Shown here: in pieces, positions 13,525 to 41,450 of the stretch | Position numbering within the stretch: position 1 is the stretch's first letter | How the letters are laid out: each line of letters opens with the position of its first letter | Program-made: the position numbers and the translations under genes | Origin: Cryptosporangium arvum DSM 44712 | Lineage (GTDB): Bacteria > Actinomycetota > Actinomycetes > Mycobacteriales > Cryptosporangiaceae | Direction of reading: 5' to 3' | Length of the DNA: 64,000 nt | NCBI RefSeq assembly: GCF_000585375.1 | Contig: NZ_KK073874.1 | Span: forward strand, 4,154,001 to 4,218,000 | The notes under the pieces: model-generated | What the model saw: only the letters and a program-made list of their open reading frames with translations | The model's database searches: none | What the model was told of the DNA's origin: nothing

Positions 13525-13602
13525 GAGGTCTCCTGCACGGAGTCGGAGGAACGAACCGTGCAGAAGACTGCGGGGGACGGCTGTCAGCGGGCTCTCACGG
13601 CG

Positions 13603-14463: not shown

Positions 14464-14502
14464 GGCTCCCTCTCCGAGGCCTCGGTGTTCCAGCATCGAC
14501 GG

Positions 14503-14970: not shown

Positions 14971-15078
14971 CCCCGGCCGGCATCAGCCGCCGACACGCAG
15001 GACGTCGCCGAGCCGGCGGGCACCGGCCTCGATCGACGCGCTCGCCCGGATGGAGGCCGTAGGCCTCGTCGTCGAGGA

Positions 15079-15107
15079 GCCCCGGCGCAGCGACCCGGCG
15101 CCGGGGC
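15079..15107. terminator. Bidirectional hairpin terminator candidate
   Basis: Perfect 10-bp stem GCCCCGGCGC / GCGCCGGGGC with a 9-base loop, between the convergent VOC gene (ends 14970) and terpene synthase (ends 15122). No U tract, as is common in high-GC actinomycetes. The rest of the gap (14971-15121) shows nothing else. Confidence 0.55.
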
Positions 15108-15121
15108 CTCCGCTAACGGGC

Positions 15122-26983: not shown

Positions 26984-27730
26984 ATGGTTGCCCGCCCCGA
27001 CGCGTTCGCCCTTCCTCCACGTGGTCGGGCGGAACGGCTGGGAGTGGCGGTGACCAGCGAACTCGTCGAGATGATCGTCACCGGTGAGGTCGCGGAGGGT
27101 GACCTGCTGCCGCCCGAGGCCCCGCTCAGCGAGCACTTCGGCGTGAGCCGCACGGTGATCCGGGAGTCGATCAAACGGCTCGAGGAGAAGGGCCTCGTCG
27201 TCGTCGCGCAAGGCCGCGGTACCCAGGTGAACCGGTCCGGCTCGTGGAACATGCTGGACCCGATCATTCTCTCCGCGCTCATCGACAACGACGAGTCGCT
27301 GGGCATCCTGGACGAGCTGACGGTCGTGCGCGGCCACCTGGAGTCGGCGATGGCCGGCGCGGTCGCGGCGCGGAACACGCCGGACGAGCTCGAGCGCATC
27401 CGCCAGGTGCACGACACCATGCGCGGGATGCAGCAGGAGAGCGACGCGTCCCGGCAGGAGGACGTCGTCTTCCACCTGACGATCATGGAGATCTCACGCA
27501 ACCGGCTGGCCGAGAACATCGCGAAGCGGCTCTACCGGCGGGCGCTGGAGAGCACCCGGTACCAGGGCGCCGACTACGCGGGCGCGTTCGAGTCCACGAT
27601 CTCCGAACACGGGCGGGTGGTCGACGCGATCGCCCGCAACGACGTCGAGGGCGCCGAGCGGGCGATGCGCGAGCACATCCTCAGCTCGTGGCGGCGGCGT
27701 CGCCTGGCCGGCCCCCCGGAGAGCGCGTAG
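26984..27730 (+). CDS. GntR/FadR-family (FCD) transcriptional regulator
   Basis: 248 residues. The winged helix at about 18-85 has PLSEHFGVSRTVIRESIKRLE and GLVVVAQGRGTQVN. The C-terminal FCD domain carries the metal-binding pattern in LDELTVVRGHLES, DVVFHLTIME and ISEHGRVVDAI, with Asp and three His as candidate ligands. FCD regulators typically sense sugar acids or related carboxylates. It faces and overlaps by 50 bp the end of the sugar-catabolic operon (aldose dehydrogenase gene), so it is the best local candidate to control the island at 27.7-37.6 kb. Confidence 0.9.
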   Translation: MVARPDAFALPPRGRAERLGVAVTSELVEMIVTGEVAEGDLLPPEAPLSEHFGVSRTVIRESIKRLEEKGLVVVAQGRGTQVNRSGSWNMLDPIILSALIDNDESLGILDELTVVRGHLESAMAGAVAARNTPDELERIRQVHDTMRGMQQESDASRQEDVVFHLTIMEISRNRLAENIAKRLYRRALESTRYQGADYAGAFESTISEHGRVVDAIARNDVEGAERAMREHILSSWRRRRLAGPPESA

Positions 27731-28676
27731 GCACCGCGGCCGCCGGCAGGAAGCCCGCCGCGACCAGGTCGCGCCACAGCCCGTCCGGGACGTCGGCGGC
27801 GAACCGCTCGAGGTTCTCGTCGACCTCGCCCGGCGACCGCATGCCGACGGCGACCGCCGCGACGGCCGGGTGCAGCAGCGGGAACGCGAGGGCCGCGACC
27901 GGTAGCTCGACCCCGTGGTCCTCGCAGATCTCCGCGATCCGCCGGGTGCGGTCGAGCACGGCGGCGTCCGCGGGCCGGTACTCGAACGTCGCCCCGGCGG
28001 CGGGCCGGGCCGTCGAGAGCAGCCCGGTCGCGAACACTCCCACGGCCACGACCGCGACCCCGGCCTCCCGGGCCGGCTCGAGTACGGTCTCCAGCGCGCT
28101 GGCCTCGAGCAGCGAGTAGCGGTTGGCCAGCATGATCACGTCGACCAGGCCCTCGCCGATCAGCGTGGAGAGACCGGCGGTGGAGTTCGTGCCGATGCCG
28201 ATCGCCGAGACCAGGCCGGCCTGCTTCAGCCGCGCCAGCGAGGCCAGCGACTCCCGCGCGGCGGATCCCCAGGCCTGGTCGGGGTCGTGGGCGAAGAGGA
28301 TGTCGACCGCGTCGAGGCCGAGCCGGTCGAGGCTCTCCCGGAGGGACCGCTCGACGCCCTCGGGCGAGAAGTCCCAGCGTCGCTCCAGGTCACCCGGGAC
28401 CAGGAACCCGTCGTCGTCCCACTCGCGCGGCGGCACCCGGGGGACGAGCAGCCGCCCGACCTTCGTCGAGACGACGAACTCGTCGCGCGGACGCTCCCGC
28501 AGCGCGGCGCCGAGGCGACGCTCGGAGAGCCCGAGGCCGTAGTGCGGGGCGGTGTCGAAGTAGCGGATGCCGCGGTCCCAGGCCCGGTCCAGCGTGCGGC
28601 GGGCCCGGTCGTCGTCCATCGCGGCGGCGAAGTTGCCCAGCGGCGCGCCGCCCAAGCCGAGCGTTCCGGGAATCAT
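27681..28676 (-). CDS. Aldo/keto reductase, D-threo-aldose 1-dehydrogenase type
   Basis: 331 residues in the AKR TIM barrel. The start at 28676 gives TLGLGGAPLGNF, as in D-threo-aldose 1-dehydrogenases (L-fucose/L-galactose dehydrogenases). Catalytic tetrad: Asp and Tyr in YFDTAPHYG, Lys in VSTKVGRLL, His in FAHDPD. The C-terminal cofactor loop IAEICEDHGVE leads to the GMRSPGEVDENL segment. It would oxidise C1 of an aldose to the aldonolactone, feeding the lactonase gene immediately upstream in the operon (4-bp overlap, ATGA at 28673). Last gene of the seven-gene catabolic operon. L-fucose, L-galactose, D-arabinose and L-xylose fit the family. Confidence 0.85.
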   Translation of the reverse strand: MIPGTLGLGGAPLGNFAAAMDDDRARRTLDRAWDRGIRYFDTAPHYGLGLSERRLGAALRERPRDEFVVSTKVGRLLVPRVPPREWDDDGFLVPGDLERRWDFSPEGVERSLRESLDRLGLDAVDILFAHDPDQAWGSAARESLASLARLKQAGLVSAIGIGTNSTAGLSTLIGEGLVDVIMLANRYSLLEASALETVLEPAREAGVAVVAVGVFATGLLSTARPAAGATFEYRPADAAVLDRTRRIAEICEDHGVELPVAALAFPLLHPAVAAVAVGMRSPGEVDENLERFAADVPDGLWRDLVAAGFLPAAAVPTRSPGGRPGDAAATS

Positions 28677-29479
28677 GACCCGAGTCCGTACCACGCCGCG
28701 GCGGTCCCGCCGTCGATCGCCCGGCGTTCGCCGGTGCTCAGGTCGGCGACGAGCGCGTCCACCGCGGCCCGCCAGGACACCGGTCCGGCGCCGAGCAGCG
28801 CGAGCGGCCAGTCCGACCCGTACATCAGCCGGTGCGGGCCGAACGCGTCCAGCGCGACGTCGGCCACCCGCCGCAGCCGGTCCGCGTCGGACACCAGCGC
28901 GGCCAGGCCGGAGATCTTCGCGGTGACGTTCGGGAGGGCGGCGAGTGTCCGGAGGCCACGCTCCCAGCCCTCGTCGTCGTCGCACTCGGCGATGCCCCCG
29001 AGGTGGTCGAGGACGAACCGGGTGCCGGGGCGGGCGGCCGCGACCGACGCGGCCAGGTCCAGCTGCCACCACCGCACGACCAGGTCGAAGCCGAGGCCGT
29101 GCTCCGCCAGGGTGTCGAAGGACGCGCCCACGTCGGGCCGGCCGAGCCACTGCGGATCGGGGTCCACGTGGACGAGGTGACGGATCCCGACCAGCCGTCC
29201 GTCGGCGCCGAGCTTCTCGAGTTGCGCGGCGGCGTCGGCGGTGAGGTCGATCCAGCCGACGACCGGCTCCGACCGGCTCAGCAGCCGCTGGGTCTCGCCG
29301 AGGTCGTTCACGGTCTGGACGACCACCGCGGTGTCGACGCCGGTGTCCGCGAGCATCCGGGCGAGGTCGTCGGACCCGAAGTCGCGGTCGATCGCCCCCA
29401 TGGTGCCCGGATCGATCCAGGGCTGCGGGTCGGTGGCGCGGTGCCAGAGATGCACGTGCGCGTCGATCCGGCCGCTCAC
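28673..29479 (-). CDS. Amidohydrolase-2 family lactonase (L-fuconolactonase-like)
   Basis: 268 residues from GTG at 29479, which overlaps the mutarotase stop by 4 bp. COG3618-type TIM barrel: metal-binding IDAHVHLW at the N terminus, GWIDLTA, GIRHLVHVDPDPQW, FVLDHLGG with a later His, KISGLA, and the terminal YGSDWPL with the conserved Asp. Members hydrolyse sugar lactones (L-fucono-1,5-lactone, L-rhamnono-lactone, galactarolactone) or 2-pyrone dicarboxylate. In this operon the lactone role is the fitting one, between the aldose dehydrogenase and the acid dehydratase. Confidence 0.88.
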   Translation of the reverse strand: MSGRIDAHVHLWHRATDPQPWIDPGTMGAIDRDFGSDDLARMLADTGVDTAVVVQTVNDLGETQRLLSRSEPVVGWIDLTADAAAQLEKLGADGRLVGIRHLVHVDPDPQWLGRPDVGASFDTLAEHGLGFDLVVRWWQLDLAASVAAARPGTRFVLDHLGGIAECDDDEGWERGLRTLAALPNVTAKISGLAALVSDADRLRRVADVALDAFGPHRLMYGSDWPLALLGAGPVSWRAAVDALVADLSTGERRAIDGGTAAAWYGLGS

Positions 29480-29817
29480 GACAGGTGCCAGATCTCGTCG
29501 AGCGGCTGCCAGAGCGCGCCGGGCACCCGCTCGTCGACGATGCGGACCTGGCACGGGTCGGTGTGCGTCCACCACTCGCGGGTGACCGGATCCTCGGCGA
29601 CCCGGGCCAGGTCGGCGTCGTGGTCGTCGCCGACGTACTCGTAGTAGGCGAACAAGGTGTCGCCGGTCACGAAGATCGAGTAGTTGGTGACGTTCGCGTC
29701 CCGCAGCGTCTGCTCGACCTGCGGCCAGACCTCCCGGTGCAGGCGGAGGTACTCCTCCCGCCGCTCGGGCCGGAGCCCGACGACGAGCGCGTGGCGCTGC
29801 GGCTCGGCCGCGCTCAC
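29476..29817 (-). CDS. L-rhamnose/L-fucose mutarotase-like protein
   Basis: 113 residues, the standard length of the RhaM/FucU-like dimeric ferredoxin-fold mutarotases. Landmarks: an early catalytic His/Tyr region EEYLRLHREVWPQV, NVTNYSIFVTGDTLFAYYEY, and a C-terminal WW...HTDPCQ segment. It would interconvert alpha and beta anomers so the 1-dehydrogenase gets its preferred form. The RhaM signature (H..VWPEV with NYSI) favours a 6-deoxy-L-hexose or an L-sugar of similar configuration. Four-base overlaps on both sides place it firmly in the operon. Confidence 0.88.
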   Translation of the reverse strand: MSAAEPQRHALVVGLRPERREEYLRLHREVWPQVEQTLRDANVTNYSIFVTGDTLFAYYEYVGDDHDADLARVAEDPVTREWWTHTDPCQVRIVDERVPGALWQPLDEIWHLS

Positions 29818-30995
29818 GCCGAGGTCCCCAGCGCCGCCGGGGCGGGCGTCGCCCGGGCCGGGTCGGGTACCAGCCGCAGCCCGGCCCGGTCGGGGCGGAC
29901 GTGCGGCCCGGCGATCCCGGCGAGCGGAGTGGCCGGCGTCGCCGTCCGGATCACCGACTCGTCGACCCGGATGCCGAGCCCCGGCTCGTCGCCGAGCACG
30001 ATGCCGCCGTCGCTGAACTCCTGGTCGATCTCGAGCCCGACCGGCGAGTGCAGGTGCTGGATCTCGAACGACAGGTGGTTGGGGATCGCGGCGGCCGCGT
30101 GCGCGAGCGGGTTGCCGTGGTACGAGACCGGGCTCACCGGCAGGTCGCGGCTGTGCGCGACCGCGGCCACCCGCAGGAAGTGGGTGATGCCCCAGACGTT
30201 GCCGACCTGGACGACGTCGACCGCGTCGGCGTCGAGCAGCGGCCGGTACTGCTCCAGTCCGGTGAGGTTCTCACCGGTCGCCACCGCGGTCCGGACGTGC
30301 TGGCGCACGGACGCGTGGCCGGCGGCGTCCCACCGGCGGAGGGGTTCCTCGATCCAGGCGAGGTCGATGGCGCGCTCCAGTTCGGTCAGGTAACGGACGG
30401 CCTGCGTGCGGTTCCAGGACTCGTTCGCGTCGAGCATCAGCGCGGGACGGTCGGAGTTGCGGCCGAGGACGTCCCGGACCGCGAGCAGCCGGCGCAGGTC
30501 GTGCTCGACGTCGTGCCCGCCCTTGAGCTTGGCCGCGCTGAAGCCGCGATCGGCGTAGCGCTGGTAGAGCTGGACGAGTTCCTCGTCGCCGAGGGCGATG
30601 TCCAGACCGGAGGCGTACCCGGGCACGAACCGGTTCAGAGCCCCGAGGGTTCGCCACAGCGGCTCTTCGGCGTACTTCGCCTTCAGGTCCCAGAGTGCCA
30701 TGTCGATCGCGCCGATCGCCCCGAACGTGGCGCCGGCGTGGCCGGTCTTGAAGACCCGGTTGAGCATCCGGTCGTAGAGCGCGGTGACGGCCCGGGGGTC
30801 CTCGCCCTCGACGGCGTCGAACACCCGGTCGATGTCGCCGTGCGCGCCCACCCCGACGCCCTCGACACCGTCGTCGGTCTCGAGGATCAGCACGTGCACG
30901 TCGGTCCGCGGACCGGGCATCACGCCGTTGGCATCACCGGTCAGCCTGCCCCACTCGTGCGTGGTCAGCAGACTGCGATAACCGGTGACCTTCAT
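29814..30995 (-). CDS. Enolase-superfamily sugar-acid dehydratase (mandelate racemase group)
   Basis: 393 residues: capping domain about 1-125, (beta/alpha)7-beta barrel after. Base motif KLK at 156-158, metal ligands Asp189, Glu216 and Glu242 (LMLDANES, WIEEPL, ATGENL), then the His-Asp dyad His293 (SYHGN) with Asp260. KxK plus a His-Asp dyad is the arrangement of mandelate-racemase-type acid-sugar dehydratases. It removes water from an aldonate to give a 2-keto-3-deoxy acid; a cycloisomerase acting on 3,6-anhydro-sugar acids has a similar fold. The C terminus carries about 30 extra Pro/Ala-rich residues. Follows the permease gene with a 28-bp gap. Confidence 0.88.
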   Translation of the reverse strand: MKVTGYRSLLTTHEWGRLTGDANGVMPGPRTDVHVLILETDDGVEGVGVGAHGDIDRVFDAVEGEDPRAVTALYDRMLNRVFKTGHAGATFGAIGAIDMALWDLKAKYAEEPLWRTLGALNRFVPGYASGLDIALGDEELVQLYQRYADRGFSAAKLKGGHDVEHDLRRLLAVRDVLGRNSDRPALMLDANESWNRTQAVRYLTELERAIDLAWIEEPLRRWDAAGHASVRQHVRTAVATGENLTGLEQYRPLLDADAVDVVQVGNVWGITHFLRVAAVAHSRDLPVSPVSYHGNPLAHAAAAIPNHLSFEIQHLHSPVGLEIDQEFSDGGIVLGDEPGLGIRVDESVIRTATPATPLAGIAGPHVRPDRAGLRLVPDPARATPAPAALGTSA

Positions 30996-31023
30996 GGTGA
31001 CTCCTTCTTCGGGCGGACGGGGC

Positions 31024-31905
31024 TCACTCTTTGGTCCCGCCCGCGGTCATGCCGGCGACCAGGAAACGTTGTGAGACGAGGAAGACGACGAGCACCGGCA
31101 GCACCGAGACGACGGTCGCCAGCGCGAGCGTCGGGAGCTGCACGGACTGCGCGCCGGCCGAGCTCGGGTTGAACGCCGGCGTCGAGGCGAGCAGCGAGGT
31201 CAGCCCCACCTGCGCGGGGTAGCCGTCGCTCGAGGGCAGCATCACGAACGGCAGGAAGAAGTTGTTCCAGTTCTGCACGAAGCTGAAGAACGCGACCAGG
31301 GCCACGATCGGTGCGGCCAGCGGCAACGCCACCTTCGTGAAGACCTGGTACTCCCGGCAGCCGTCGATCCGGGCCGCGGCGAGCAGGTCCCGCGGGATGC
31401 TCGTCGAGAAGTAAATGTAGGTGAGGTACACCCCGAACGGGAAGAACGACATCGGCAGGATCACCGACAGCGGGCTGCCGATCAGCCCGACCACGTTCAG
31501 CTCGAGGAAGATCGGCAGGACGAGCGCGGTGTTCGGGATCAGCATGACGATCAGGGTCAGCACCAGCAGCAGCCGCCGGCCCCGGAACTCGGTGAGCGCC
31601 AGCGCGTAGCCGGCCGGGATGCTGGCGACGAGCGTGATGACGAGCGCGCCGATCGCGTACAGCGCCGAGTTCCCGATCCAGCTCGTGACCGCGCCGTCCT
31701 GGAACGAGAACAGCGAGCTCCAGTTCTCGGCCAGATCGCCGAGGCCGCCGGGGGCGAACGGGTTGTCGACGATCAGCCCCCGGGCCGACTTGGTGGTGGC
31801 CAGCAGCAGCCAGACGATCGGAATGGCGAAGAACAGCACGAACACCGTCAGTACGACGGCGACGATCGTCCGGCCGCTCCAGCCGCTGAGTTTCGCAGTG
31901 GTCAT
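31024..31905 (-). CDS. Sugar ABC transporter permease, MalG/LacG type
   Basis: 293 residues, six membrane helices starting with TIVAVVLTVFVLFFAIPIVW. The ATPase-contact EAA loop is LAAARIDGCREYQVFTKVALPL (quoted in part: AARIDGCREY), matching the CUT1 permease class. A periplasmic-facing loop between helices 1 and 2 is long. It pairs with the MalF-type permease 3 bp upstream and the binding protein. No ATP-binding gene is in the operon, so it probably shares an MsiK-like ATPase encoded elsewhere. Confidence 0.92.
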   Translation of the reverse strand: MTTAKLSGWSGRTIVAVVLTVFVLFFAIPIVWLLLATTKSARGLIVDNPFAPGGLGDLAENWSSLFSFQDGAVTSWIGNSALYAIGALVITLVASIPAGYALALTEFRGRRLLLVLTLIVMLIPNTALVLPIFLELNVVGLIGSPLSVILPMSFFPFGVYLTYIYFSTSIPRDLLAAARIDGCREYQVFTKVALPLAAPIVALVAFFSFVQNWNNFFLPFVMLPSSDGYPAQVGLTSLLASTPAFNPSSAGAQSVQLPTLALATVVSVLPVLVVFLVSQRFLVAGMTAGGTKE

Positions 31906-31908
31906 GGA

Positions 31909-32832
31909 TCAGTCCCGCTCGAACAGGCCGCCGCGCGTCACGAAGACGGCCGACAGCGCGAGGGCGATGACGAGCAGCAGCAACGAGATCGCGGCTGCTC
32001 CGTTGAAGTCGTTCTGCTGGAACGCGTACTGGTAGGCGAGCTGGTTGAGCGAGTAGTCGTTCGGCACGATCGCGTTGCTGGCCTGGGAGAGCAGCTGCGG
32101 CTCGACGAACAGCTGGGTGCCGGCGGCCAGCGACATGATGCCCATGTACGAGATCCACTTGCGCAGCATCGGCAGCTGGATGTTCCAGGCGATCTGGACC
32201 GGGCTCGCGCCGTCCATCCGCGCGGCCTCCATCACCTCGTCGCTGATGTTGTTCAGCGCGCCGTACATGATGACGATCCAGCCGCCCGCGCCGGTCCAGA
32301 ACGCGATGATCGCGAAGATCACCGGCAGGTTGCCCGGGACGATGACCTGCACGAAGCTGTCGAACCCGAACAGCGTGAGCAGGCCGCCGACCGGGCTCGC
32401 GGTCGGGTCGAGCACGAACAGCCACAGCAGCACGCTCGACGCCCCGGCCAGCGCGCCGGGCAGGTAGAAGACGAACCGCAGCGTCCGGCTCAGCCAGCGG
32501 ACCTTGATCGCGTGCACCACGATCGCCAGCACGGTGACCAGCACGACCAGGGCGACCAGCCAGATCAGCAGGTAGAACGCCACGTGGGTGACGGCCGGCC
32601 AGAAGCGGAAGTCGCCGACGACCTTCGAGAAGTTGGTGATCCCGGCGAAGCCGCCCTCGACGTCGGTGAAGGCGAGGTAGACCGCGTAGAGGGCGGGCAG
32701 GACGCCGAACGCCAGCGCGAGGGCCGCGTAGAGCGAGATGAAGCCGTAGCTCATCAGGCTGCCGCGCCGCCGGACGGGCGGCCGGTCGGCCGCCCGTCCC
32801 GTCGCCGGGGCCACCTCGGCGACAACGGTCAT
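31909..32832 (-). CDS. Sugar ABC transporter permease, MalF/UgpA type
   Basis: 307 residues; cytosolic N-terminal tail of about 25 residues with RRRG, then six to seven helices. EAA loop: MEAARMDGASPVQIAWNIQLP (20-residue core MEAARMDGASPVQIAWNIQL). Start ATG at 32832 overlaps the binding-protein stop (ATGA). Forms the heterodimeric channel with the downstream MalG-type protein. Confidence 0.92.
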   Translation of the reverse strand: MTVVAEVAPATGRAADRPPVRRRGSLMSYGFISLYAALALAFGVLPALYAVYLAFTDVEGGFAGITNFSKVVGDFRFWPAVTHVAFYLLIWLVALVVLVTVLAIVVHAIKVRWLSRTLRFVFYLPGALAGASSVLLWLFVLDPTASPVGGLLTLFGFDSFVQVIVPGNLPVIFAIIAFWTGAGGWIVIMYGALNNISDEVMEAARMDGASPVQIAWNIQLPMLRKWISYMGIMSLAAGTQLFVEPQLLSQASNAIVPNDYSLNQLAYQYAFQQNDFNGAAAISLLLLVIALALSAVFVTRGGLFERD

Positions 32833-34184
32833 TTGACCGTGTAGCCGTTCACTTGCGCCTGGTTCTTGATCGCCTGCTCCCACTCGGGCAGCAGCGAGAC
32901 CAGGCTCTTGCCGCCCGCGATCGCCGGGGTGATCGTCTTGGCCCAGACGGCTTCCTGGCTGAAGATGCCGGAGCCCCAGCCGTCCCAGATCGACGTGCCC
33001 GCCTCGACCACGGCGGTCAGGTCGGTGGCGTAGTAGCCGCTCGTCTCCTGCTTCTTCACCCACTTCTCCGCCGCCGGGGCGTAGGCGGGGTACCCCGGAG
33101 CGACGGCGACCTGGTAGTCGTCGGCCGTCGTGACGAACCGGACGAACGACTCCGCGGCCTTGAGGTTCTTCGAGTGGCTGCTGACGAACCAGGTGCCGCC
33201 GCCGACGTTGCCGGTCACCGCCTTGTCGCTGCCCCACGCGGGCGGCGGGGCGACGCCGAGCTGGCCCTTCGGGACGTTGAGCGACTCCGGGTTGTTGAAG
33301 ATCGCGCCCGCGTACCAGGCCGGACCGGGCATCAGGAGCACCTTGCCGGAGTACTTCTTGACGAACTCGGGTGTGAAGACGCTGACGTTGGGCGTGGTGC
33401 CGTTCGTGATCAGCGTGTCGAGCATCGTCGCCGCGCGCTTGCACTCCGCGCTGCCGGTGTCGACCGTGACCGCCTTCGGGCCGGTGATGCCGTTGGCCCG
33501 GCACTTGCTGGCCCAGAAGAAGACCTCGGGCGTCCAGGCATCGCCGACCGTGCCGACGATGTAGCCGGGGTGCTCCCGGCCGACCTTCTCGCCCAGGGCC
33601 TGGTACTCCTCCCAGGTCTTCGGGACCTGGTAGCCGAACTGGTCGAGCAGCGTCTTGTTGTACCAGAGCACCGCCTGGGCGAGGTCGTTGCGCAGGCAGT
33701 AGACCTTGCCGTCGACCGTGCACGGGTTCAGCGAGCCGCTGGTGAACTGATCGAGCGTGTCCTTGGCGACCAGCCCGTCGTTGAGCACCGCCGCGAACGC
33801 CTGCTTGCCGTTGCTTTTCTGGCTGGCCCAGGCGGCGTCGTTGTTCTGGGACGAGAACACCACGTCCGGCCAGCCGCTCTGGGCGCGGTCGAAGAGCTGC
33901 ACCTTCGTCCGGAACGAGTTCGAGCCGTTCGCCGAGCCGTCGTAGGTCACGACCTTGATCGGCGTGCCGGGGTTGGCCTTCGTGAACGCGTCCGCGGCCT
34001 TGGTCCGATCGGCGTCCACCCAGACCGTGATCGTCGCCTTGTCGTCCTGCTTGACCTGGGGGAAGCCGTACTCCCCGGCGGTGGATCCGCCGCCGCTGTT
34101 GCACGCGGCGAGCGCCAGGGTGAGCGCTGCGGCGCCGGCGATGGCCACCAACCGGGACCGTCGAGCGGCTCTGAACCGAACCAT
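32829..34184 (-). CDS. Sugar ABC transporter substrate-binding lipoprotein
   Basis: 451 residues, extracytoplasmic family 1 binding protein. Signal peptide with RRSR, hydrophobic LVAIAGAAALTLAL, lipobox LAAC at about residue 28. Body has ITVWVDADRTKAADAFTKAN, PDVVFSSQN, AQAVLWYNKTLLDQFGY, a KTWEEYQ linker strand, and aromatic residues (Trp and Tyr) suited to sugar stacking. Three extra cysteines sit near the middle. Start chosen at ATG 34184, preceded by AAAAGGA. First gene of the seven-gene minus-strand operon. Confidence 0.93.
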   Translation of the reverse strand: MVRFRAARRSRLVAIAGAAALTLALAACNSGGGSTAGEYGFPQVKQDDKATITVWVDADRTKAADAFTKANPGTPIKVVTYDGSANGSNSFRTKVQLFDRAQSGWPDVVFSSQNNDAAWASQKSNGKQAFAAVLNDGLVAKDTLDQFTSGSLNPCTVDGKVYCLRNDLAQAVLWYNKTLLDQFGYQVPKTWEEYQALGEKVGREHPGYIVGTVGDAWTPEVFFWASKCRANGITGPKAVTVDTGSAECKRAATMLDTLITNGTTPNVSVFTPEFVKKYSGKVLLMPGPAWYAGAIFNNPESLNVPKGQLGVAPPPAWGSDKAVTGNVGGGTWFVSSHSKNLKAAESFVRFVTTADDYQVAVAPGYPAYAPAAEKWVKKQETSGYYATDLTAVVEAGTSIWDGWGSGIFSQEAVWAKTITPAIAGGKSLVSLLPEWEQAIKNQAQVNGYTVK

Positions 34185-34288
34185 GTCATGTCCTTTTCTG
34201 ATCGTCGTCCTTGACGTCGAGTTCGTGGGGCCAGACCATAAGGTCACACGTATGATGTTTGCAAGAGGGCGAGAGAGCGAGGCCGTTG
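34185..34288. promoter_or_regulatory. Divergent control region of the sugar-acid catabolic island
   Basis: 104 bp between the binding-protein gene (minus) and the Zn-dehydrogenase gene (plus). On the minus strand TTGCAA (34259-34264) and TATGGT (34235-34240) are 18 bp apart, a usable -35/-10 pair for the import operon. Between and over them lies the imperfect dyad CCATA-N10-TATGA (about 34237-34255), a possible GntR-family operator. A TATGAT box at 34251-34256 could serve the plus operon. Confidence 0.5.
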
Positions 34289-35305
34289 ATGCAGGGTGTG
34301 GCGTACGAGGGTGGCGGGACGTTACGGGTCTCGACCACGGAGGTGGAACCGCCGGGGCCGGGAGAGCTGCAGATCGCGGTCGCGTACTGCGGCCTCTGCG
34401 GGACCGACCTGCACATCGCGCACGGCAACATGGACGCCCGGGTGCGGACACCGCTGATCTTCGGCCACGAGGCCGCGGGCACGGTGGCCGCGGTGGGGCC
34501 CGGCGTGACCGGCTGGGAGGTCGGCGACCCGCTCACCGTCATGCCGCTGCTGTGGGACGGGACGTGCTCGGCGTGTCTGGCCGGCCATCAGCACATCTGC
34601 CAGAACCTCACGTTCGTCGGCATCGACTCCCCGGGCGCGCTGCAGCAGCGCTGGAACGTGCCCGCCTCGATCGCCGTCCCGCTCCCGGCCGACCTGGACC
34701 TGCGCGCGGCCGCGCTGGTGGAGCCGGTGGCGGTCGCCGTCCACGACGTGCGCCGCTCCGAGCTGCAGGTCGGTGACCGCGTCGTGGTGCTCGGCGGCGG
34801 CCCGATCGGCGTGCTCATCGGCTGCGTCGCGCGCCACGCCGGGGCCCAGGTGCTGATCGCCGAGGTCGACGAGAGCCGCCGGGCCCGGATCGCCGCGCTC
34901 GGGTTCGAGACCGTGGATCCCGCCACCGACGACGTCGTCGCCGAGGTGGGGCGGTGGACCGGGGGCGATGGGGCCGACGTCGTGTTCGAGGTGTCGGGGG
35001 CCGCCGCGGCCGCACGCTCCACCACGGCGCTGGCCAAGGTCCGGGGCACGATCGTGGTCGTCGCCATCCACGCCGCCGCGCGCGAGATCGACCTGCAGCG
35101 GGTCTTCTGGCGTGAGCTGCGCCTGCTCGGCGCCCGGGTGTACCAGCGTTCCGACTTCGAGCGGGCGATCGCCCTGCTCGGCCAGGGTGTCATCCCCGCC
35201 GAGGAGCTCATCACCCGCGTCGTCCCGCTCGACCGGACGCCGGCCGCGATGGACGACCTGGCCGCGGGCCGCGCGATGAAGATCCTGGTCGAGGTGGGCG
35301 CGTGA
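34289..35305 (+). CDS. Zinc-dependent medium-chain dehydrogenase (polyol/threonine-DH-like)
   Basis: 338 residues. Catalytic zinc site: Cys in YCGLCGTD, His-Glu in FGHEAAG, and Glu in LVEPVAV. Only three Cys remain at the structural zinc lobe (TCSAC and HICQN), one fewer than usual. Rossmann motif VVLGGGPIGVLIG at about 165-177. Start ATG at 34289 with GAGG upstream; a TTG at 34259 is possible but unlikely. It overlaps the SDR start by 4 bp (GTGA). In the island it may oxidise a hydroxyl of the sugar acid or its keto-deoxy derivative. Confidence 0.88.
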   Translation: MQGVAYEGGGTLRVSTTEVEPPGPGELQIAVAYCGLCGTDLHIAHGNMDARVRTPLIFGHEAAGTVAAVGPGVTGWEVGDPLTVMPLLWDGTCSACLAGHQHICQNLTFVGIDSPGALQQRWNVPASIAVPLPADLDLRAAALVEPVAVAVHDVRRSELQVGDRVVVLGGGPIGVLIGCVARHAGAQVLIAEVDESRRARIAALGFETVDPATDDVVAEVGRWTGGDGADVVFEVSGAAAAARSTTALAKVRGTIVVVAIHAAAREIDLQRVFWRELRLLGARVYQRSDFERAIALLGQGVIPAEELITRVVPLDRTPAAMDDLAAGRAMKILVEVGA

Positions 35306-36057
35306 GCGGCCTGTTCGACCTGAGCGGCCGGCTCGCGGTCGTCACCGGAGCCCGGCGCGGCATCGGGCGCGCGATGGCCGAGGCCCTGGCCGGGGCCGGA
35401 GCGGACATCATCGGGGTCAGCACCCAGGCCGGGCCCGACGACGACGTCGCCACGACGATCCGGGGCCTCGGCCGGTCGTTCGAGGCGCGGGCGGTGGACT
35501 TCGCCGACCGGGAGGCCGTCGTCGCGCTCGGCACCGAGCTGGCCGCGCGTGCTCCGGACATCCTGATCAACAACGCGGGCACGATCGAGCGCGCGCCGGC
35601 GATCGAGCACCCCCTCGAATGGTGGGACCGGGTGCTCGAGGTCGACCTGTCCAGCCAGTTCGTCCTCACCCAGCTGGTCGCCGCGCCGATGCTCGAACGC
35701 GGCCGGGGCAAGGTCGTCTTCACGGCGAGCCTGCTCAGCTTCCAGGGCGGCATCAACGTTCCCGGCTACGCCGCGGCGAAGTCGGGCGTCGCCGGGCTCA
35801 CCCGGGCGCTGGCCAACGAGTGGGCCGCCCGGGGCGTGAACGTCAACGCGATCGCGCCCGGCTACATCGCGACCGACAACACCGCGGCGCTGCGCAACGA
35901 CCCCGATCGGTCCCGCTCGATCCTCGAGCGCATCCCGGCCGGGCGCTGGGGCCGCGGCGACGACCTCGCCGGGGCCACCGTCTTCCTCGCCTCGGCGGCG
36001 TCGGACTACGTCTCGGGCACGGTCCTGCCGGTGGACGGTGGGTGGCTGGGCAGATGA
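35302..36057 (+). CDS. SDR oxidoreductase, KduD-like (2-keto-3-deoxy sugar-acid dehydrogenase)
   Basis: 251 residues, classical SDR. NAD(P) motif TGARRGIG at about 15-22, NNAG at about 91-94, catalytic Ser in FTASLLS and YAAAK with Tyr/Lys at about 155-159. The opening LFDLSGRLAVVTG and the ending SGTVLPVDGGWLGR resemble 2-deoxy-D-gluconate 3-dehydrogenase (KduD) and 2-keto-3-deoxy-L-fuconate dehydrogenases. GTG start and 4-bp overlaps on both sides make it part of a tight four-gene operon. Likely role: redox step on the keto-deoxy acid made by the dehydratase. Confidence 0.87.
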   Translation: MSGLFDLSGRLAVVTGARRGIGRAMAEALAGAGADIIGVSTQAGPDDDVATTIRGLGRSFEARAVDFADREAVVALGTELAARAPDILINNAGTIERAPAIEHPLEWWDRVLEVDLSSQFVLTQLVAAPMLERGRGKVVFTASLLSFQGGINVPGYAAAKSGVAGLTRALANEWAARGVNVNAIAPGYIATDNTAALRNDPDRSRSILERIPAGRWGRGDDLAGATVFLASAASDYVSGTVLPVDGGWLGR

Positions 36058-36671
36058 CCACCACCGAGCTCGCGCGGATCCGGGTCCTCCCGGTCGTCGT
36101 CCTCGACGATCCGCGGCATGCCCTTCCGCTCGCCCGCGCGCTCGCCGACGGCGGTGTGCCGTGCGCCGAGATCACGCTGCGCACCCCGGCCGCCGTCGAG
36201 GCCGTCGCGACGGTGGCGGAGCTCGACGGGTTCCTCGTCGGCGCGGGCACCGTGCTCACGCCCGAACAGTTCGACCGCGTCGTCGACGCCGGAGCGCGGT
36301 TCGTGGTGAGCCCCGGCTTCAGCGCGGTGCTCAGCAACCGCGCGAGCCGGCGGGGCGTGCCCGCGATCCCCGGCGTGGCGACGGCGAGCGAGCTCATGTC
36401 GGCGCGCGCGGCCGGGCACACCGTGGTGAAGCTGTTCCCGGCCGCGCAGCTCGGCGGCGCCGCGCTGGTGCCGGCCCTGCACGGGCCGTTCCCCGACGTC
36501 CGGTTCGTGCCCAGCGGCGGGATCAGCATCAGCAACGCCGCCGAGTACGACCTCGAACCGGTCCTGACCGTCTCCACCAGCTGGATCACCCCGCGGGACG
36601 TGATCGCCGCCGGGCGCTTCGACGAGATCACCGCGCGGGCGCGCGAGTTCCGTGCGGCGGTGGGGCGGTGA
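36054..36671 (+). CDS. eda: 2-dehydro-3-deoxy-phosphogluconate (KDPG/KDPGal) aldolase
   Basis: 205 residues, class I aldolase of the KDPG/KHG family. Signature pieces in order: RVLPVVVLDD, catalytic Glu in CAEITLRT, GAGTVLTPEQ, SPGF, the GVATASE turn, the Schiff-base Lys in VVKLFPA, and the phosphate-binding SGGIS. Length and motifs match Eda/DgoA. It cleaves a 6-phospho-2-keto-3-deoxy acid to pyruvate plus glyceraldehyde 3-phosphate. Translationally coupled to the SDR upstream and the kinase downstream by 4-bp overlaps. Confidence 0.92.
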   Translation: MTTTELARIRVLPVVVLDDPRHALPLARALADGGVPCAEITLRTPAAVEAVATVAELDGFLVGAGTVLTPEQFDRVVDAGARFVVSPGFSAVLSNRASRRGVPAIPGVATASELMSARAAGHTVVKLFPAAQLGGAALVPALHGPFPDVRFVPSGGISISNAAEYDLEPVLTVSTSWITPRDVIAAGRFDEITARAREFRAAVGR

Positions 36672-37627
36672 TCGAGCGCGTCGTCACCGTCGGTGAGGCC
36701 CTGGCGGTGTTCCGGGCCGGTGACGACGGACCGCTGTGGAGCGCCCCGCGGGTGGCGGTCTCGACCGGCGGCGCCGAGGCCAACGTCGCGATGGCGCTGG
36801 CCCGCCGGGGCGTGCCGGTCAGCTGGTTCGGCCGGGTGGGCGACGACTCGCTGGGGCGCCGCGTCACCCGCGAGCTGCGTGCCGAGGGCGTCGACGTCCA
36901 CCCGGTCGTCGACCCGGGCGGCCCCACCGGGCTGCTGGTCAAGGAGCGCGGCGCCGACGGGCGCACCAGCGTCGTCTACTACCGGCGGGGGAGCGCGGGC
37001 AGCCGGCTGAGCCCGGCCGACGTCGAGCGGATCCCGCTGTCACGCACGACGCTGCTGCACCTCACCGGCATCACGCCGGCGCTGTCCGACGAGGCCGGGG
37101 CCGCGGTCGATCACCTGCTCGACCGGGCCGACGCGGCCGGTGCGACCGTGTCGTTCGACGTCAACCACCGCGGGCGCCTCTGGCCGGCCGAGGTGGCCGC
37201 GCCGGTGTACCGCGCGCTGGCCTCCCGGGCCCACCTGGTGTTCGCCGGCGTCGACGAGGTGCCGTTCCTGCTCCCGGGCCGGGGCGGGGCCGACGCCGGG
37301 GCGGCCGCACTCGCGCTGGCGGAGCGGGGACACGCGCACGTGGTCGTCACCGCCGGGGCGGCCGGCGCGGTGGCGTGCGTCGACGGTTCGCTGCACGCGG
37401 TGCCGGCGGTACCTCTCGACGGCCCGCTGGAGACGGTGGGCGCCGGTGACGCGTTCGTCGGGGGCTACCTGGCCGAGCTCGTCGCCGGTCGGCCGGTCGA
37501 GTGCCGTCTCCGGACCGGCGCCCGGCTCGGCGCGGCCGCGTGCCGCCATCCGGGCGACTGGGAAGGCGTCGCGGACCTCTCCGGCCTGGACCCGGCGGAG
37601 GCCTCCACCGACCCGGTCAGCCGATGA
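36668..37627 (+). CDS. PfkB-family carbohydrate kinase, 2-keto-3-deoxy-gluconate kinase-like
   Basis: 319 residues from a GTG overlapping the aldolase stop (GTGA). Ribokinase fold: N-terminal TVGEALAVFR with substrate-contact STGGAEANVAMALAR, FGRVGDDSLGRRV, the lid near VVYYRRGSAGSR, and the PfkB signature ETVGAGDAFVGGYLAEL with the catalytic Asp in GAGD. The YYR-GSAGS segment is seen in KDG kinases, where it contacts the carboxylate. With the aldolase it completes an Entner-Doudoroff-type lower branch: phosphorylate the keto-deoxy acid at O6, then cleave. Last gene before a strong terminator. Confidence 0.9.
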   Translation: MIERVVTVGEALAVFRAGDDGPLWSAPRVAVSTGGAEANVAMALARRGVPVSWFGRVGDDSLGRRVTRELRAEGVDVHPVVDPGGPTGLLVKERGADGRTSVVYYRRGSAGSRLSPADVERIPLSRTTLLHLTGITPALSDEAGAAVDHLLDRADAAGATVSFDVNHRGRLWPAEVAAPVYRALASRAHLVFAGVDEVPFLLPGRGGADAGAAALALAERGHAHVVVTAGAAGAVACVDGSLHAVPAVPLDGPLETVGAGDAFVGGYLAELVAGRPVECRLRTGARLGAAACRHPGDWEGVADLSGLDPAEASTDPVSR

Positions 37628-37678: not shown

Positions 37679-38680
37679 TCAGCACTCGTTGTAGACGTAG
37701 CCGTCGGTGCCCGGCTTCGTCACGTTCTTGTCGCGCTGGACGACCGAGATCTTCGACTTCACCGCGGTGCAGGCCTTGCTGAAGCCGCTCGCGGAGTACT
37801 CGATGTCGACCCAGTTCCCGCCCCACACCTCGGCGTAGTCCCCGCACTCCGAGGTCGAGCCGCACTCCTCGACGACGGCCAGGTCGAAGCCGGCGGCCTT
37901 GCCTTCGTCCGCCAGCTCGGCCGTGTTCTTCTGGGCGATCGCCAGGTTCAGGCCGTGGGCCTTCTGGATCAGCAGGGTGGCGAACGCGAGCGCGTCGCTC
38001 TTGCTCATCAGCCGGGGAGCGCCTTCCTTGGGCTCCTTGCCCTCCCGGGCCAGCTTGCGGTCGGAGAGGTTGCTGTAGGCGCGGGTGAAGCTGTCGAGGT
38101 TGTCGACCTCGACGGCGTCGAACTTCTTGTCGGCGCAGGCCTGGATCTGCTTCCCGACGATCGCCGCGAGCGCCGCGCGCTTCGCGTCGGTGCGCAGGTC
38201 GAAGATGATCTCGTCCGGCCAGCCCGGGTCGACGTAGTACGGCTTGGAGTACTGCTGGTTCTCGGTGGCCGTCGGGTAGTCCGGCGTCGGGTTGGGCAGC
38301 AGCAGCTGCTTGCGGCTCGCGTCGTCGGCGAACCACTTGCTGGTGCCCTCGAGCGGCTGACCGTCGCTGCCCTTCTCGTCGGGCTGGGTCTGGAAGCCGT
38401 TGATGTAACAGATGTCGTAGCCGAGCCCGGCCGGCGTGTCCTTCACGTCCCGGCTGACGACCTTCACCCCGCTCGCGGGGGTGTAGCCCGTGCTGATCTG
38501 GTAGTCGAACTTCGCGTTCGGCAGGAACGTCTTCACGGCCGCGGCCCGGGTGGCGGCCGATGCCGGGGTGTCTCCAGCGACATCGGCGCATCCGGCGGCC
38601 ACCACCGCGAGAGCGGCGAACAGCATCGCCGCGCGGCGGAAGACGGGACGGCGGTCACGCCGTCCGTGGTTCGCGTGCAT
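37679..38680 (-). CDS. GH114-like glycoside hydrolase lipoprotein
   Basis: 333 residues. Twin-basic N region RRDRRPVFRR, hydrophobic AAMLFAALAVVA and lipobox VAAGC at about residue 32 make it a surface lipoprotein. The TIM-barrel domain of the endo-alpha-1,4-polygalactosaminidase family follows: FDYQISTGY, GYDICYINGFQTQ, WPDEIIFDLRTDAKRAAL, the characteristic FDAVEVDNLDSF with acidic catalytic candidates, LNLAIAQKNTAEL and DLAVVEECGS. Four or more Cys could be disulfide bonded. The family hydrolyses galactosamine-rich exopolysaccharides, and related domains occur in PelA. Placement inside a sugar-uptake island suggests it could release substrate from a glycan, but that link is only positional. 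Confidence 0.82.
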   Translation of the reverse strand: MHANHGRRDRRPVFRRAAMLFAALAVVAAGCADVAGDTPASAATRAAAVKTFLPNAKFDYQISTGYTPASGVKVVSRDVKDTPAGLGYDICYINGFQTQPDEKGSDGQPLEGTSKWFADDASRKQLLLPNPTPDYPTATENQQYSKPYYVDPGWPDEIIFDLRTDAKRAALAAIVGKQIQACADKKFDAVEVDNLDSFTRAYSNLSDRKLAREGKEPKEGAPRLMSKSDALAFATLLIQKAHGLNLAIAQKNTAELADEGKAAGFDLAVVEECGSTSECGDYAEVWGGNWVDIEYSASGFSKACTAVKSKISVVQRDKNVTKPGTDGYVYNEC

Positions 38681-38830: not shown

Positions 38831-39505
38831 TCAGTAGGTCGCGCGGCCGCCGCTGATGTCGTAGACGGCGCCGGTGGAGAAGCTGACCCGGTCGGAGGCG
38901 AGGAACGCCACCAGTTCGGCGACCTCCTCCGGGCGTCCGACCCGCTTCATCGGGATGAGGCCGGCGATGTGGTCCAGCACCTCGGGCGCGGTGTCGTCGT
39001 TCATCGGCGTGGCGATGACGGCCGGGGCGACGACGTTGACCAGCACCCCGCTGGTGGCCAGTTCCTTGCCGGCGGACTTGGTCAGGCCGATGACCGCGGC
39101 CTTGGTGGCGGAGTAGATCGACAGGTTCGGGTTGCCGTCCTTGCCGGCCATGCTGGCGAAGTTCACGACCCGGCCCCAGCCGCGCTCGCGCATGCCGGGG
39201 ACGAAGACACGCAGGGTGTTGACGGTGCCGAGCACGTTGACGTCGAAGACGCGGCGCCACTCGTCCGCGGTGGTGTCGAGCAGGGGCTTGTTGGGGCCGA
39301 TGACGCCGGCCGAGTTGACCAGGACGTCGACCGGCCCGATCTCGCCGGCGACGCGCCGCAGGGCGTCCTCGTCGGTGACGTCGGCGGTGACGTCGGCGCC
39401 GCGCAGATCGAGCGTGGTGACGGTGAGGCCGTCGGCGCGCAGGCGGGCGGCGCTCGCCGCCCCCAGGCCGCTGGCGCCGCCGGTGACCAGTGCTGACCTG
39501 CTCAT
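38831..39505 (-). CDS. SDR-family oxidoreductase (3-oxoacyl-ACP reductase-like)
   Basis: 224 residues, classical short-chain dehydrogenase. TGGASGLG cofactor loop at about 8-15, an Asp in TTLDLRGADV that favours NAD, NSAGV, FASMAGKDG with the catalytic Ser, and YSATK with Tyr/Lys. Shorter than average between strands 2 and 3. Start ATG at 39505 with GAAGGAG upstream. It is divergent from the IclR regulator and so is probably its target. Substrate unknown; the setting suggests a sugar or sugar alcohol. Confidence 0.88.
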   Translation of the reverse strand: MSRSALVTGGASGLGAASAARLRADGLTVTTLDLRGADVTADVTDEDALRRVAGEIGPVDVLVNSAGVIGPNKPLLDTTADEWRRVFDVNVLGTVNTLRVFVPGMRERGWGRVVNFASMAGKDGNPNLSIYSATKAAVIGLTKSAGKELATSGVLVNVVAPAVIATPMNDDTAPEVLDHIAGLIPMKRVGRPEEVAELVAFLASDRVSFSTGAVYDISGGRATY

Positions 39506-39645
39506 GTGTCTCCTTCGGTCCGGGCGACGCGGTCGAGGACCTCGACGACGTGTTCGAACGGGCGGCCGGTGGCCCGGGTCGGGGCGCGCCACGCTCACCA
39601 CCATGCTTCCAACTGTCGAAACGGTGGTCTATCTTTCGGAACGAG

Positions 39646-40443
39646 ATGGACACTACCCAGGCGGACGCGATCCCGCTCCAGGTCGCCCGGTTGGACGAGA
39701 GCCGGCTGGTCGGGTCCGACCGGGTGCTCGCCGTGCTCAAGGAACTCGCCCGCCACCCCGACGGGGCCGGGCTGGAGGAGCTGACCCGGGTGATCGGCAG
39801 CCCGAAGCCCACCGTGCACCGGGCGCTGGCCTCGCTGCGCCGGGCCGGCCTGGCCGACCAGGACGATCGCGGACGCTACGTGCTCGGCGACGAGTTCCTC
39901 CGGATGGCGTTCGCCCACCACGAGCTGCGCCCGGAGCAGGTGCGGATCCGCCCGGTCCTGGAGGCGCTGGCCGCCCGCTTCGGCGAGACCGCGCACTACG
40001 CGGTGCTCGACGGCCGGGAGATCGTCTACCGGGCGAAGGTCGATCCGCCGACCGGCGCGGTCCGGCTCACCTCCACGATCGGTGGCCGCAACCCGGCCCA
40101 CGCGACCGGCGTCGGCAAGCTGCTGCTGGCCTACCGGCTCGACTCGCTCGACGCGGTGCGCGACTGGATCGGCGGCGAACCGCTGGTCCGACGCACCGCG
40201 AACACCCTCGGCGACGCCGGCGCCCTGTACCGCGAGTTGCGGCTGAGCCGTGAACGCGGCTACGCGGTCGACGACCAGGAGAACGAGGTCGGCATCAACT
40301 GCCTCGCGCTCCCGGTCTACGCGACGTCACCGGCCACCCCGTCGGGGGCGATCAGCGTCAGCGCGCTGACCTACCGCACGCCGCTGTCGACCCTCACCGA
40401 CGCCGTCGAGGACGTGCGCCGCGCGCTCGGTGCCTACCGATGA
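39646..40443 (+). CDS. IclR-family transcriptional regulator
   Basis: 265 residues. Winged helix at about 20-85 (VGSDRVLAVLKELARHPDG, LTRVIGSPKPTVHRALASL), effector domain from about 95 with ARFGETAHYAVLDGREIVY, GRNPAHATGVGKLLLAY and GYAVDDQENEVGINCLALPVY, the last being the signature of the IclR ligand pocket. Start ATG at 39646. Just upstream, TCGAAA-N13-TTTCGG (about 39617-39641) is a candidate operator covering a TATCTT -10-like box. Overlaps the downstream Zn-dehydrogenase by 4 bp. Likely local regulator of the two dehydrogenases that flank it. Confidence 0.9.
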   Translation: MDTTQADAIPLQVARLDESRLVGSDRVLAVLKELARHPDGAGLEELTRVIGSPKPTVHRALASLRRAGLADQDDRGRYVLGDEFLRMAFAHHELRPEQVRIRPVLEALAARFGETAHYAVLDGREIVYRAKVDPPTGAVRLTSTIGGRNPAHATGVGKLLLAYRLDSLDAVRDWIGGEPLVRRTANTLGDAGALYRELRLSRERGYAVDDQENEVGINCLALPVYATSPATPSGAISVSALTYRTPLSTLTDAVEDVRRALGAYR

Positions 40444-41450
40444 GAGCCTTCGTCCTGCACGGCCCCGGGAAAGCCGCCGTCGAGGACGTTCCACCGCCGG
40501 TCGCCGTGCCCGGCGAGGTCGTCGTCGACGTCGAACGGGTCGGGGTGTGCGGCACCGACGTGGAGTTCTTCACCGGCGAGATGGCCTACCTGCACGAGGG
40601 CCACTCGTCCTACCCCATGCGGCTCGGCCACGAGTGGGCGGGCATCGTCGCCGCGGTCGGCGACGGGGTCGACCCGGCCTGGGTCGGGCGCCGGGTCATG
40701 GGCGACACGATGATCGGCGACGGAACCTGCCGCCGGTGCCGTCGCGGGCACCAGCACGTGTGCGAGCACCGCCAGGAGGTCGGTATCCGGGGCGGCCGGG
40801 CCGGTGCGCTGGCCGAGCAGATCGCCGCCCCCGTCACCTCGTTGCACGCGATCCCCGACAGCGTCGATCCGGTTCTCGGGGCCCTGGTCGAGCCCGGCGG
40901 GAACGCGTACCGCGCGGCGCGGGCCGCGGACGTCGGGCCCGGCGACCGGGTCCTGGTGCTCGGCCCCGGCACGATCGGCCTGCTCACCGCGATGTTCCTG
41001 CGTGCCGCCGGCGCCGAGGTGCACCTGCTGGGCCGCGACGAGGAGAGCCTCGCGTTCCCTCGCGGTCTCGGGTTCGCCGACGCGTGGACCGAGCCGACGC
41101 TGCCCGCGCTGCCGTTCGACGCGGTCGTCGAGGCCTCCAACGCCGCGCACCTGCCCGCCCGGGCGCTCGCGCTGGTCGAACCGGCCGGGCGGCTCGTCTA
41201 CATCGGGCTCGCCGGGAGCCCCAGCCTGATCGACACCCGCACGCTGGCGCTCAAGGACGTCACCGCGGTCGGGGTGCTCTCGGCCTCACCCGGTCTCGAC
41301 GCCACGATCGCGGCGTACGCGTCCGGTGTCGTCGACCCCCGCCCGCTGGTCGCGGCGACCGTCGGGCTCGACGAGGTCGCCGCCGTGCTCGCCGGCCATC
41401 GCCCCGCCGGAGCGGGGCCCGGCCCGAAGGTGCACGTCGCCCCGTCCTGA
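40440..41450 (+). CDS. Zinc-dependent medium-chain sugar/polyol dehydrogenase
   Basis: 336 residues. Catalytic zinc ligands in VCGTD, LGHEWAG and LVEPGGN; the structural zinc lobe has GTCRRC and HVCEH. Rossmann motif VLVLGPGTIGLLT near 180. ATGA overlap with the IclR stop, so the two are co-translated. A second Zn-dehydrogenase of the same type sits at 34289; the two are not close copies. Terminator-like hairpin at 41473 follows. Confidence 0.88.
   Translation: MRAFVLHGPGKAAVEDVPPPVAVPGEVVVDVERVGVCGTDVEFFTGEMAYLHEGHSSYPMRLGHEWAGIVAAVGDGVDPAWVGRRVMGDTMIGDGTCRRCRRGHQHVCEHRQEVGIRGGRAGALAEQIAAPVTSLHAIPDSVDPVLGALVEPGGNAYRAARAADVGPGDRVLVLGPGTIGLLTAMFLRAAGAEVHLLGRDEESLAFPRGLGFADAWTEPTLPALPFDAVVEASNAAHLPARALALVEPAGRLVYIGLAGSPSLIDTRTLALKDVTAVGVLSASPGLDATIAAYASGVVDPRPLVAATVGLDEVAAVLAGHRPAGAGPGPKVHVAPS

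Follow-up and report, generated by a model that had tools for sequence, protein, structure and literature searches.

A divergent gene cluster of Cryptosporangium arvum with a predicted oxidative route for L-galactose through 2-keto-3-deoxy-L-galactonate

A 64,000-nucleotide stretch of the Cryptosporangium arvum DSM 44712 genome (contig NZ_KK073874.1, positions 4,154,001 to 4,218,000; hereafter the window, numbered from its first letter) carries a cluster of twelve genes that probably constitutes a single regulon for the complete oxidative catabolism of L-galactose by way of 2-keto-3-deoxy-L-galactonate (L-KDGal) and 2-keto-3-deoxygluconate (KDG). It is best read as a new combination of two known half-pathways. 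The window has a G+C content of 73% and the 9.2-Mb host genome is a single contig. Seven minus-strand and four plus-strand genes, all eleven named in a first-pass annotation of this DNA, are confirmed at their positions, and a twelfth that it did not list encodes a FadR-type GntR/FCD transcriptional regulator (26984-27730, plus strand; Pfam FCD 84.7 bits, GntR 68.0 bits). Seven of the nine gene junctions within the minus and plus runs are 4-base overlaps, and the runs are thus read as two divergent operons. All twelve proteins were scanned against Pfam and ten of them against NCBIfam.

The minus-strand genes would supply import and the upper half of the route. An ABC solute-binding protein (32829-34184; Pfam SBP_bac_1, 80.4 bits) and two ABC sugar permeases (permease 1, 31909-32832, BPD_transp_1 37.6 bits; permease 2, 31024-31905, 61.7 bits) would bring in L-galactose, with exchange of its anomers by a RhaM-family sugar mutarotase (29476-29817; PF05336, 99.1 bits). 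An aldo/keto reductase (AKR; 27681-28676; PF00248), the predicted L-galactose (L-fucose, D-arabinose) 1-dehydrogenase, would oxidize the sugar to its lactone, an Amidohydrolase_2 protein (28673-29479), the predicted L-galactono/L-fucono-lactonase, would open this to L-galactonate, and an enolase-superfamily acid-sugar dehydratase (29814-30995; Pfam MR_MLE), the predicted L-galactonate dehydratase, would yield L-KDGal (4S,5S). On the plus strand, a zinc-dependent dehydrogenase of the medium-chain type (MDR; Zn-DH; 34289-35305), the predicted L-KDGal 5-dehydrogenase, would oxidize C5 to the (4S) 2,5-diketo-3-deoxy acid, and a KduD-like short-chain dehydrogenase/reductase (SDR; 35302-36057), the predicted 5-reductase of that acid, would reduce C5 to the opposite configuration, giving KDG (4S,5R). 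A PfkB-family protein (36668-37627), the predicted KDG kinase, and a KDPG/KHG aldolase (36054-36671) would then take KDG through its 6-phosphate (KDPG) to pyruvate and glyceraldehyde-3-phosphate.

In stereochemical terms, dehydration of L-galactonate gives 3-deoxy-L-threo-hexulosonate (4S,5S), whose oxidation at C5 yields the diketo acid of KduD and whose subsequent reduction yields KDG (4S,5R). L-Fucose has no 6-hydroxyl, which the kinase must phosphorylate, and D-arabinose has no C6; both sugars therefore misfit the lower branch, and the lower half points to L-galactose. Every substrate and product named here, as well as the ligand and site of the regulator, is a prediction; among the substrates proposed by the first-pass annotation L-galactose is the best fitting.

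In the lower half, the Zn-DH and SDR genes are adjacent and overlap by 4 bases, and a tblastn search with Zn-DH against 72,556 plasmid records matched 1328 of them, all below 60% identity. Fourteen of the 25 matches listed were at least 42% identical, and in each of the seven of these 14 contexts that were opened an SDR gene directly follows Zn-DH, in the gene order of the window; the window Zn-DH is 42-52% and the window SDR 58-65% identical to their counterparts in the seven pairs. Genes for an aldehyde dehydrogenase and an MR/MLE-family protein accompany the pair in five stretches (Bacteroides uniformis pBUN1, Catenovulum, Microscilla, Paracoccus and Roseibium), a Rhodobacteraceae S2214 stretch has the MR/MLE gene and no aldehyde dehydrogenase, and no MR/MLE gene or aldehyde dehydrogenase is present in the Persicobacter stretch (L104 1033-9377). 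Passages of one published account assign a four-gene row in Aquimarina to L-KDGal 5-dehydrogenase, a KduD-type enzyme, anhydrogalactose dehydrogenase and cycloisomerase (PMC10163077); the gene orders of pBUN1 and Microscilla equal this row, and because of that correspondence the five plasmid stretches are read as anhydrogalactose clusters, the records themselves being silent on agar. The Catenovulum SDR is annotated as 2,5-didehydro-3-deoxy-L-galactonate 5-reductase. In the relevant passages of the published accounts the pair converts L-KDGal to KDG (EC 1.1.1.389 and 1.1.1.127; PMC5943477, PMC10163077), and one of them follows the anhydrogalactose pathway through to KDG, crediting Lee et al. 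2014 (PMC5943477). The plus operon looks like this known L-KDGal-to-KDG module.

Family scores fit these assignments to differing degrees. The SDR scores 314.4 bits against KduD (TIGR01832), just under the equivalog cut-off of 338.85, which the SDRs of the Catenovulum and Persicobacter pairs also miss (326.6 bits each). The aldolase scores 216.9 bits against TIGR01182 (cut-off 156.05) and, among the matches listed for the ten proteins scanned, is alone in passing a curated cut-off, so that the other enzyme names rest on weaker likeness together with context. The best NCBIfam match of the kinase is KDG/KDGal kinase (184 bits, below the cut-off of 440) and that of Zn-DH is threonine dehydrogenase; the role predicted for Zn-DH follows from its likeness to the plasmid pairs. 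Most of its relatives on plasmids carry the label of an alcohol dehydrogenase domain protein.

In the upper half, all five PDB sequences matching the AKR at E<=1e-20 are named L-galactose dehydrogenase. The sole NCBIfam match of the lactonase at E<=0.001 is L-fucono-1,5-lactonase (NF052480; 160.6 bits, below the cut-off of 400), with a PDB match to 4dlf (1.2e-27), and the mutarotase scores 51 bits against the NCBIfam L-rhamnose mutarotase (cut-off 99.6). These enzymes are predicted probably to accept L-fucose and D-arabinose as well, since relatives of the dehydratase also adjoin L-fucose- and D-arabinose-type branches. The upper half cannot discriminate between D-arabinose, L-fucose and L-galactose, all of which were substrates of an AKR-superfamily enzyme from P. 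mimosarum; passages of the same paper note that D-arabinonate, L-fuconate, L-galactonate and D-altronate are alike in C2-C4 configuration (PMC6336799).

The arrangement of the cluster is conserved in one other genome of the same genus (G001), where all twelve genes are collinear at 73-94% identity in local pairwise alignments (regulator 90%, permease 1 94%, permease 2 92%) with dN/dS of 0.13-0.42, showing that it is not due to chance. A close dehydratase is absent from G002 and G003, the other two of the three same-genus genomes searched. In a set of 61 genomes, which includes that of C. arvum and is otherwise drawn mostly from its order, five have a relative of the dehydratase at E<=1e-60 (the G055 copy with an in-frame TAG) and five an SDR at 69% identity or more; both occur in four, clustered in G000, G001 and G018 and on separate contigs in G055. 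The cluster is thus patchily distributed rather than part of a core genome. Loci in G055 and G047 (L113 and L114) carry Zn-DH, the KduD-like SDR and the lactonase, L114 also the mutarotase, with a different enolase-superfamily gene (31% identical) that is a possible replacement for the dehydratase.

A wider survey considered 80 named dehydratase loci, the best of 562, of which 69 have at least 55% dehydratase identity and are counted here; the other 11, with matches below 55%, are left out. Genes of the relatives come from our own codon-bias caller, which missed or mis-started some, and the locus counts come from tblastn with self-chosen thresholds. The Zn-DH/KduD-like SDR pair is present in 18 of the 69 loci, with Zn-DH alone in L066. 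An L-fucose-type FAH-fold hydrolase with its SDR is present in nine loci and the FAH protein alone in five more; nine contain a FAH-fold protein of a different kind. The FAH protein of L040 matches L-2,4-diketo-3-deoxyrhamnonate hydrolase (8gsr, 7.2e-68). The FAH-fold protein of L031 matches 9kkt (1.2e-125), named just FAH family protein, and also 2-keto-3-deoxy-D-arabinonate dehydratase (2q18, 2.2e-13), and its type would mark D-arabinose use.

The two operons are separated by a 104-bp gap containing TTGCAAACATCATACGTGTG (34245-34264, minus strand), the sole exact site in the 9.2-Mb genome; the pattern recurs elsewhere only as one site with three mismatches, and the reversed control gives none. 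The pattern was derived from the window site, whose own match proves nothing, and it is the comparison across loci that is informative. Eleven aligned divergent gaps share this conserved element, which reads ATACGTATG in eight, ATACGTGTG in the window and G001, and ACATGTATG in L030. Its consensus, ACRTNATACGTATG, has 28 exact copies in 18 of the 69 loci, compared with none in each of five first-order Markov shuffles, and 59 sites within one mismatch in 29 loci, compared with 0-1 in the five shuffles. Fourteen of the 18 pair-bearing loci, as opposed to 15 of the 51 others, have a site with at most one mismatch. L022, L024, L026 and L027 carry repeated copies of the element: next to the GH141-like gene, between the AKR and Zn-DH genes, ahead of the gene for the binding protein and at the regulator gene. 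We infer that the FadR-type protein binds this putative operator, and it probably controls both operons from the shared site; the twelve genes are a real, conserved and probably co-regulated catabolic unit. Synteny, the shared operator and the match of the Zn-DH/KduD-like pair to the published module uphold the core proposal, in which an L-fucose-type upper half leads by way of two redox steps at C5 into a KDG/Entner-Doudoroff lower half.

An alignment of the 69 dehydratases with the published SCO3480 site and PDB 2pp0, from which residue roles were taken, shows that K156 and K158 (KxK), D189, E216 and E242 are invariant, as the enolase superfamily requires. The active-site dyad of the SCO3480 cycloisomerase is Asp-270 and His-297 in the passages describing it (PMC9706016), and no canonical His-Asp dyad was found in the 69 aligned members. 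The loop that carries the cycloisomerase Asp is two residues shorter in all of them, and the residue aligned with the His is Val in 54 and Ile in 15; all six presumed cycloisomerases retain both the Asp (QPD) and the His (SHG or THG). The missing dyad speaks against a cycloisomerase role. D260 (67 of 69) and a later His at position 299 (57 of 69) lie nearby, and a shifted dyad register is possible. 

The dehydratase sequence does not itself fix the substrate. An attempt to assign substrates from a quick tree, on which 25 of the 66 inner branches are starred and 25 open, failed, as the branch types are scattered. One interpretation, which we consider evenly poised, is that this dehydratase branch handles L-galacto/D-arabino aldonates without the His-Asp dyad and serves as a shared gateway to swappable lower branches, in which L-galactose would be served by a C5-epimerising KDG branch, L-fucose by a FAH branch and D-arabinose by a 2-oxoglutarate branch; the window would hold the L-galactose version, and L040, L057 and L077 are examples in which two or three branch types are combined in one locus.

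The same genes could act on the same sugar in another order, with Zn-DH converting L-galactonate to D-tagaturonate, the SDR reducing this to D-altronate, and the dehydratase giving KDG directly. D-Altronate and L-galactonate share their C2-C4 configuration (PMC6336799, in part), a dehydratase blind to C5 could act on either, and the Luteolibacter pathway, in the passages describing it, runs this way (PMC12632266), as does the E. coli L-galactonate route. We nonetheless regard this order as unlikely: the SDR is KduD-like, the pair sits in clusters where the published substrate is already a 3-deoxy acid, and relatives of the dehydratase adjoin L-fucose- and D-arabinose-type branches, where prior epimerisation at C5 is not expected. 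The operons might instead serve different substrates. The cluster has neither a FAH hydrolase with a 2-keto-3-deoxy-L-fuconate dehydrogenase nor an unphosphorylated aldolase, as the first-pass annotation said, although in the genome as a whole the FAH branch is not missing. A FAH-fold hydrolase/SDR pair, found among the six inspected of ten FAH matches, lies at ~2.413-2.415 Mb (L096 7798-10170), 1.77 Mb from the cluster and beside an IclR-family regulator; its FAH and SDR show 59% and 60% identity to their counterparts in the L-fucose-type pair from Nocardioides mangrovi (L040), and no upper-pathway gene was recognised in the 17-kb stretch around it. This pair may complete L-fucose use with the upper enzymes of the window. 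That the minus operon is dedicated to L-fucose (and D-arabinose) with this pair in trans, leaving the plus operon for another source of KDG, would also suit the loci in which FAH, with or without its SDR, accompanies a dehydratase relative. It is improbable given that both operons share one intergenic region and its conserved operator, in other genera too, that 18 of the 69 loci join the dehydratase with Zn-DH and the KduD-like SDR, and that the operator pattern has no site within three mismatches at 2.41 Mb.

The two remaining substrates suggested by the first-pass annotation, which overall is partly supported, do not hold up. A 3,6-anhydro-L-galactose (agar) cluster would account for the lower module, which is that of anhydrogalactose-type clusters, and the dehydratase is distantly related to cycloisomerase (5xd7, E 2.1e-30). 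This reading is barely credible and was rejected on gene content and catalytic residues: the cluster has no aldehyde dehydrogenase, no clear function for the lactonase or the mutarotase is apparent with the anhydro sugar, and by alignment the dehydratase family lacks the cycloisomerase Asp and His. D-Galactonate was likewise judged unlikely, since another cluster, located at 7.89 Mb and comprising an enolase-superfamily gene, a PfkB kinase (44%), an aldolase (40%) and a GntR gene, fits it better and would serve that acid.

Several observations weigh against the L-galactose regulon. The genome contains no second operator site, and so none at the regulator gene. None of the lactonase, mutarotase, dehydratase, kinase and Zn-DH reaches the curated cut-off of its best NCBIfam match. 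Relatives of the dehydratase co-occur with L-fucose- and D-arabinose-type branches too, the branch type switches 12, 8 and 5 times on the dehydratase tree, and a Streptomyces plasmid stretch has a dehydratase (65%) with AKR, importer, GH95 and mutarotase and no Zn-DH/SDR pair. Thirteen of the 18 pair-bearing loci show no aldolase or kinase above the identity threshold, some of the fetched stretches ending early; another PfkB-type gene is present in six loci, one of them Pfam-confirmed. No enzyme that would release the sugar was found, as the genome has no GH95 and only a weak, partial 42% match to GH141, GH29 not having been searched, so that the links of the relatives to these families do not carry over to C. 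arvum.

Among the relatives, a GH141-like parallel beta-helix protein is present in 33 of the 69 loci (e.g. L009 2706-4751; 5mqp BT_1002, 1.5e-43) and GH95 in nine (L051, L053, L056, L060-L062, L070, L072 and L076), counts that include the query loci themselves. These neighbours suggest plant L-fucose/L-galactose side chains as the sugar source in those organisms. Twelve of the 69 loci (L031 at 13214-16325, L032, L034, L040-L044, L046, L049, L075 and L077) have a type III CoA-transferase and an enoyl-CoA hydratase beside the sugar-acid genes; CoA chemistry would be unexpected in aldonate breakdown. A binding-protein-like gene is present in 11 of the 12, the L031 copy, the sole one tested, having no Pfam match. 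The Persicobacter plasmid (L104 1033-9377) similarly has two CoA-transferases, two solute-binding proteins, a MaoC-domain protein and an alpha-L-fucosidase with its Zn-DH/SDR pair. In the window, a GH114-family glycoside hydrolase gene (37679-38680, minus strand; Pfam 137 bits) lies between the cluster and a further sugar-oxidation-like set (38831-41450) of an SDR (36% to the L-fucose-type SDR), an IclR-family regulator and a second Zn-dehydrogenase (32% to the first).

The cluster resembles three known systems in part. It shares with the 3,6-anhydro-L-galactose pathway of agar degraders the homologous Zn-DH/KduD-like pair in equal order, followed by kinase and aldolase functions, but its upper half is a lactone-forming oxidation and a dehydration instead of aldehyde oxidation and cycloisomerisation. 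That upper half, of dehydrogenase, lactonase and dehydratase, is of the kind found in oxidative L-fucose pathways such as the bifidobacterial fum locus, and a Bifidobacterium simiarum locus holds a member of the dehydratase family with AKR, lactonase, an MFS gene and a DHDPS-family aldolase. L-Fucose routes end in an unphosphorylated aldolase or in a 4-dehydrogenase and FAH hydrolase, whereas turnover at C5 and phosphorylation at C6 are predicted here. L-Galactose occurs in plant and algal polysaccharides, and few accounts of its use by bacteria were found in the open-access literature searched, whose listings also include papers on Roseobacter litoralis and Salmonella containing the words 'growth on L-galactose'. 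L-Galactose has reportedly been studied in Bacteroides vulgatus too, as has the fungal L-galactonate dehydratase. L-Galactose use has been described in Luteolibacter, and the route of Luteolibacter sp. LG18 and E. coli has the same substrate and end (KDG, KDPG, pyruvate and glyceraldehyde-3-phosphate), although there, according to passages of that report, the redox steps on L-galactonate come first (tagaturonate, altronate) and dehydration last (PMC12632266). In the passages available, a 2024 review describes the entry of L-KDGal into E. coli metabolism as still to be elucidated (PMC11219438), and Watanabe et al. mention an unpublished L-galactonate dehydratase in '(unidentified) L-galactose metabolism' (PMC6336799). 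The present combination of half-pathways was not found described in the open-access literature searched, subscription papers being mostly outside that search.

The cluster offers a candidate gene for every step of L-galactose catabolism, and the L-galactose reading would replace the vague labels now attached to the Zn-enzyme. It further suggests that the type of lower branch beside a promiscuous upper half may act as a barcode for the substrate.

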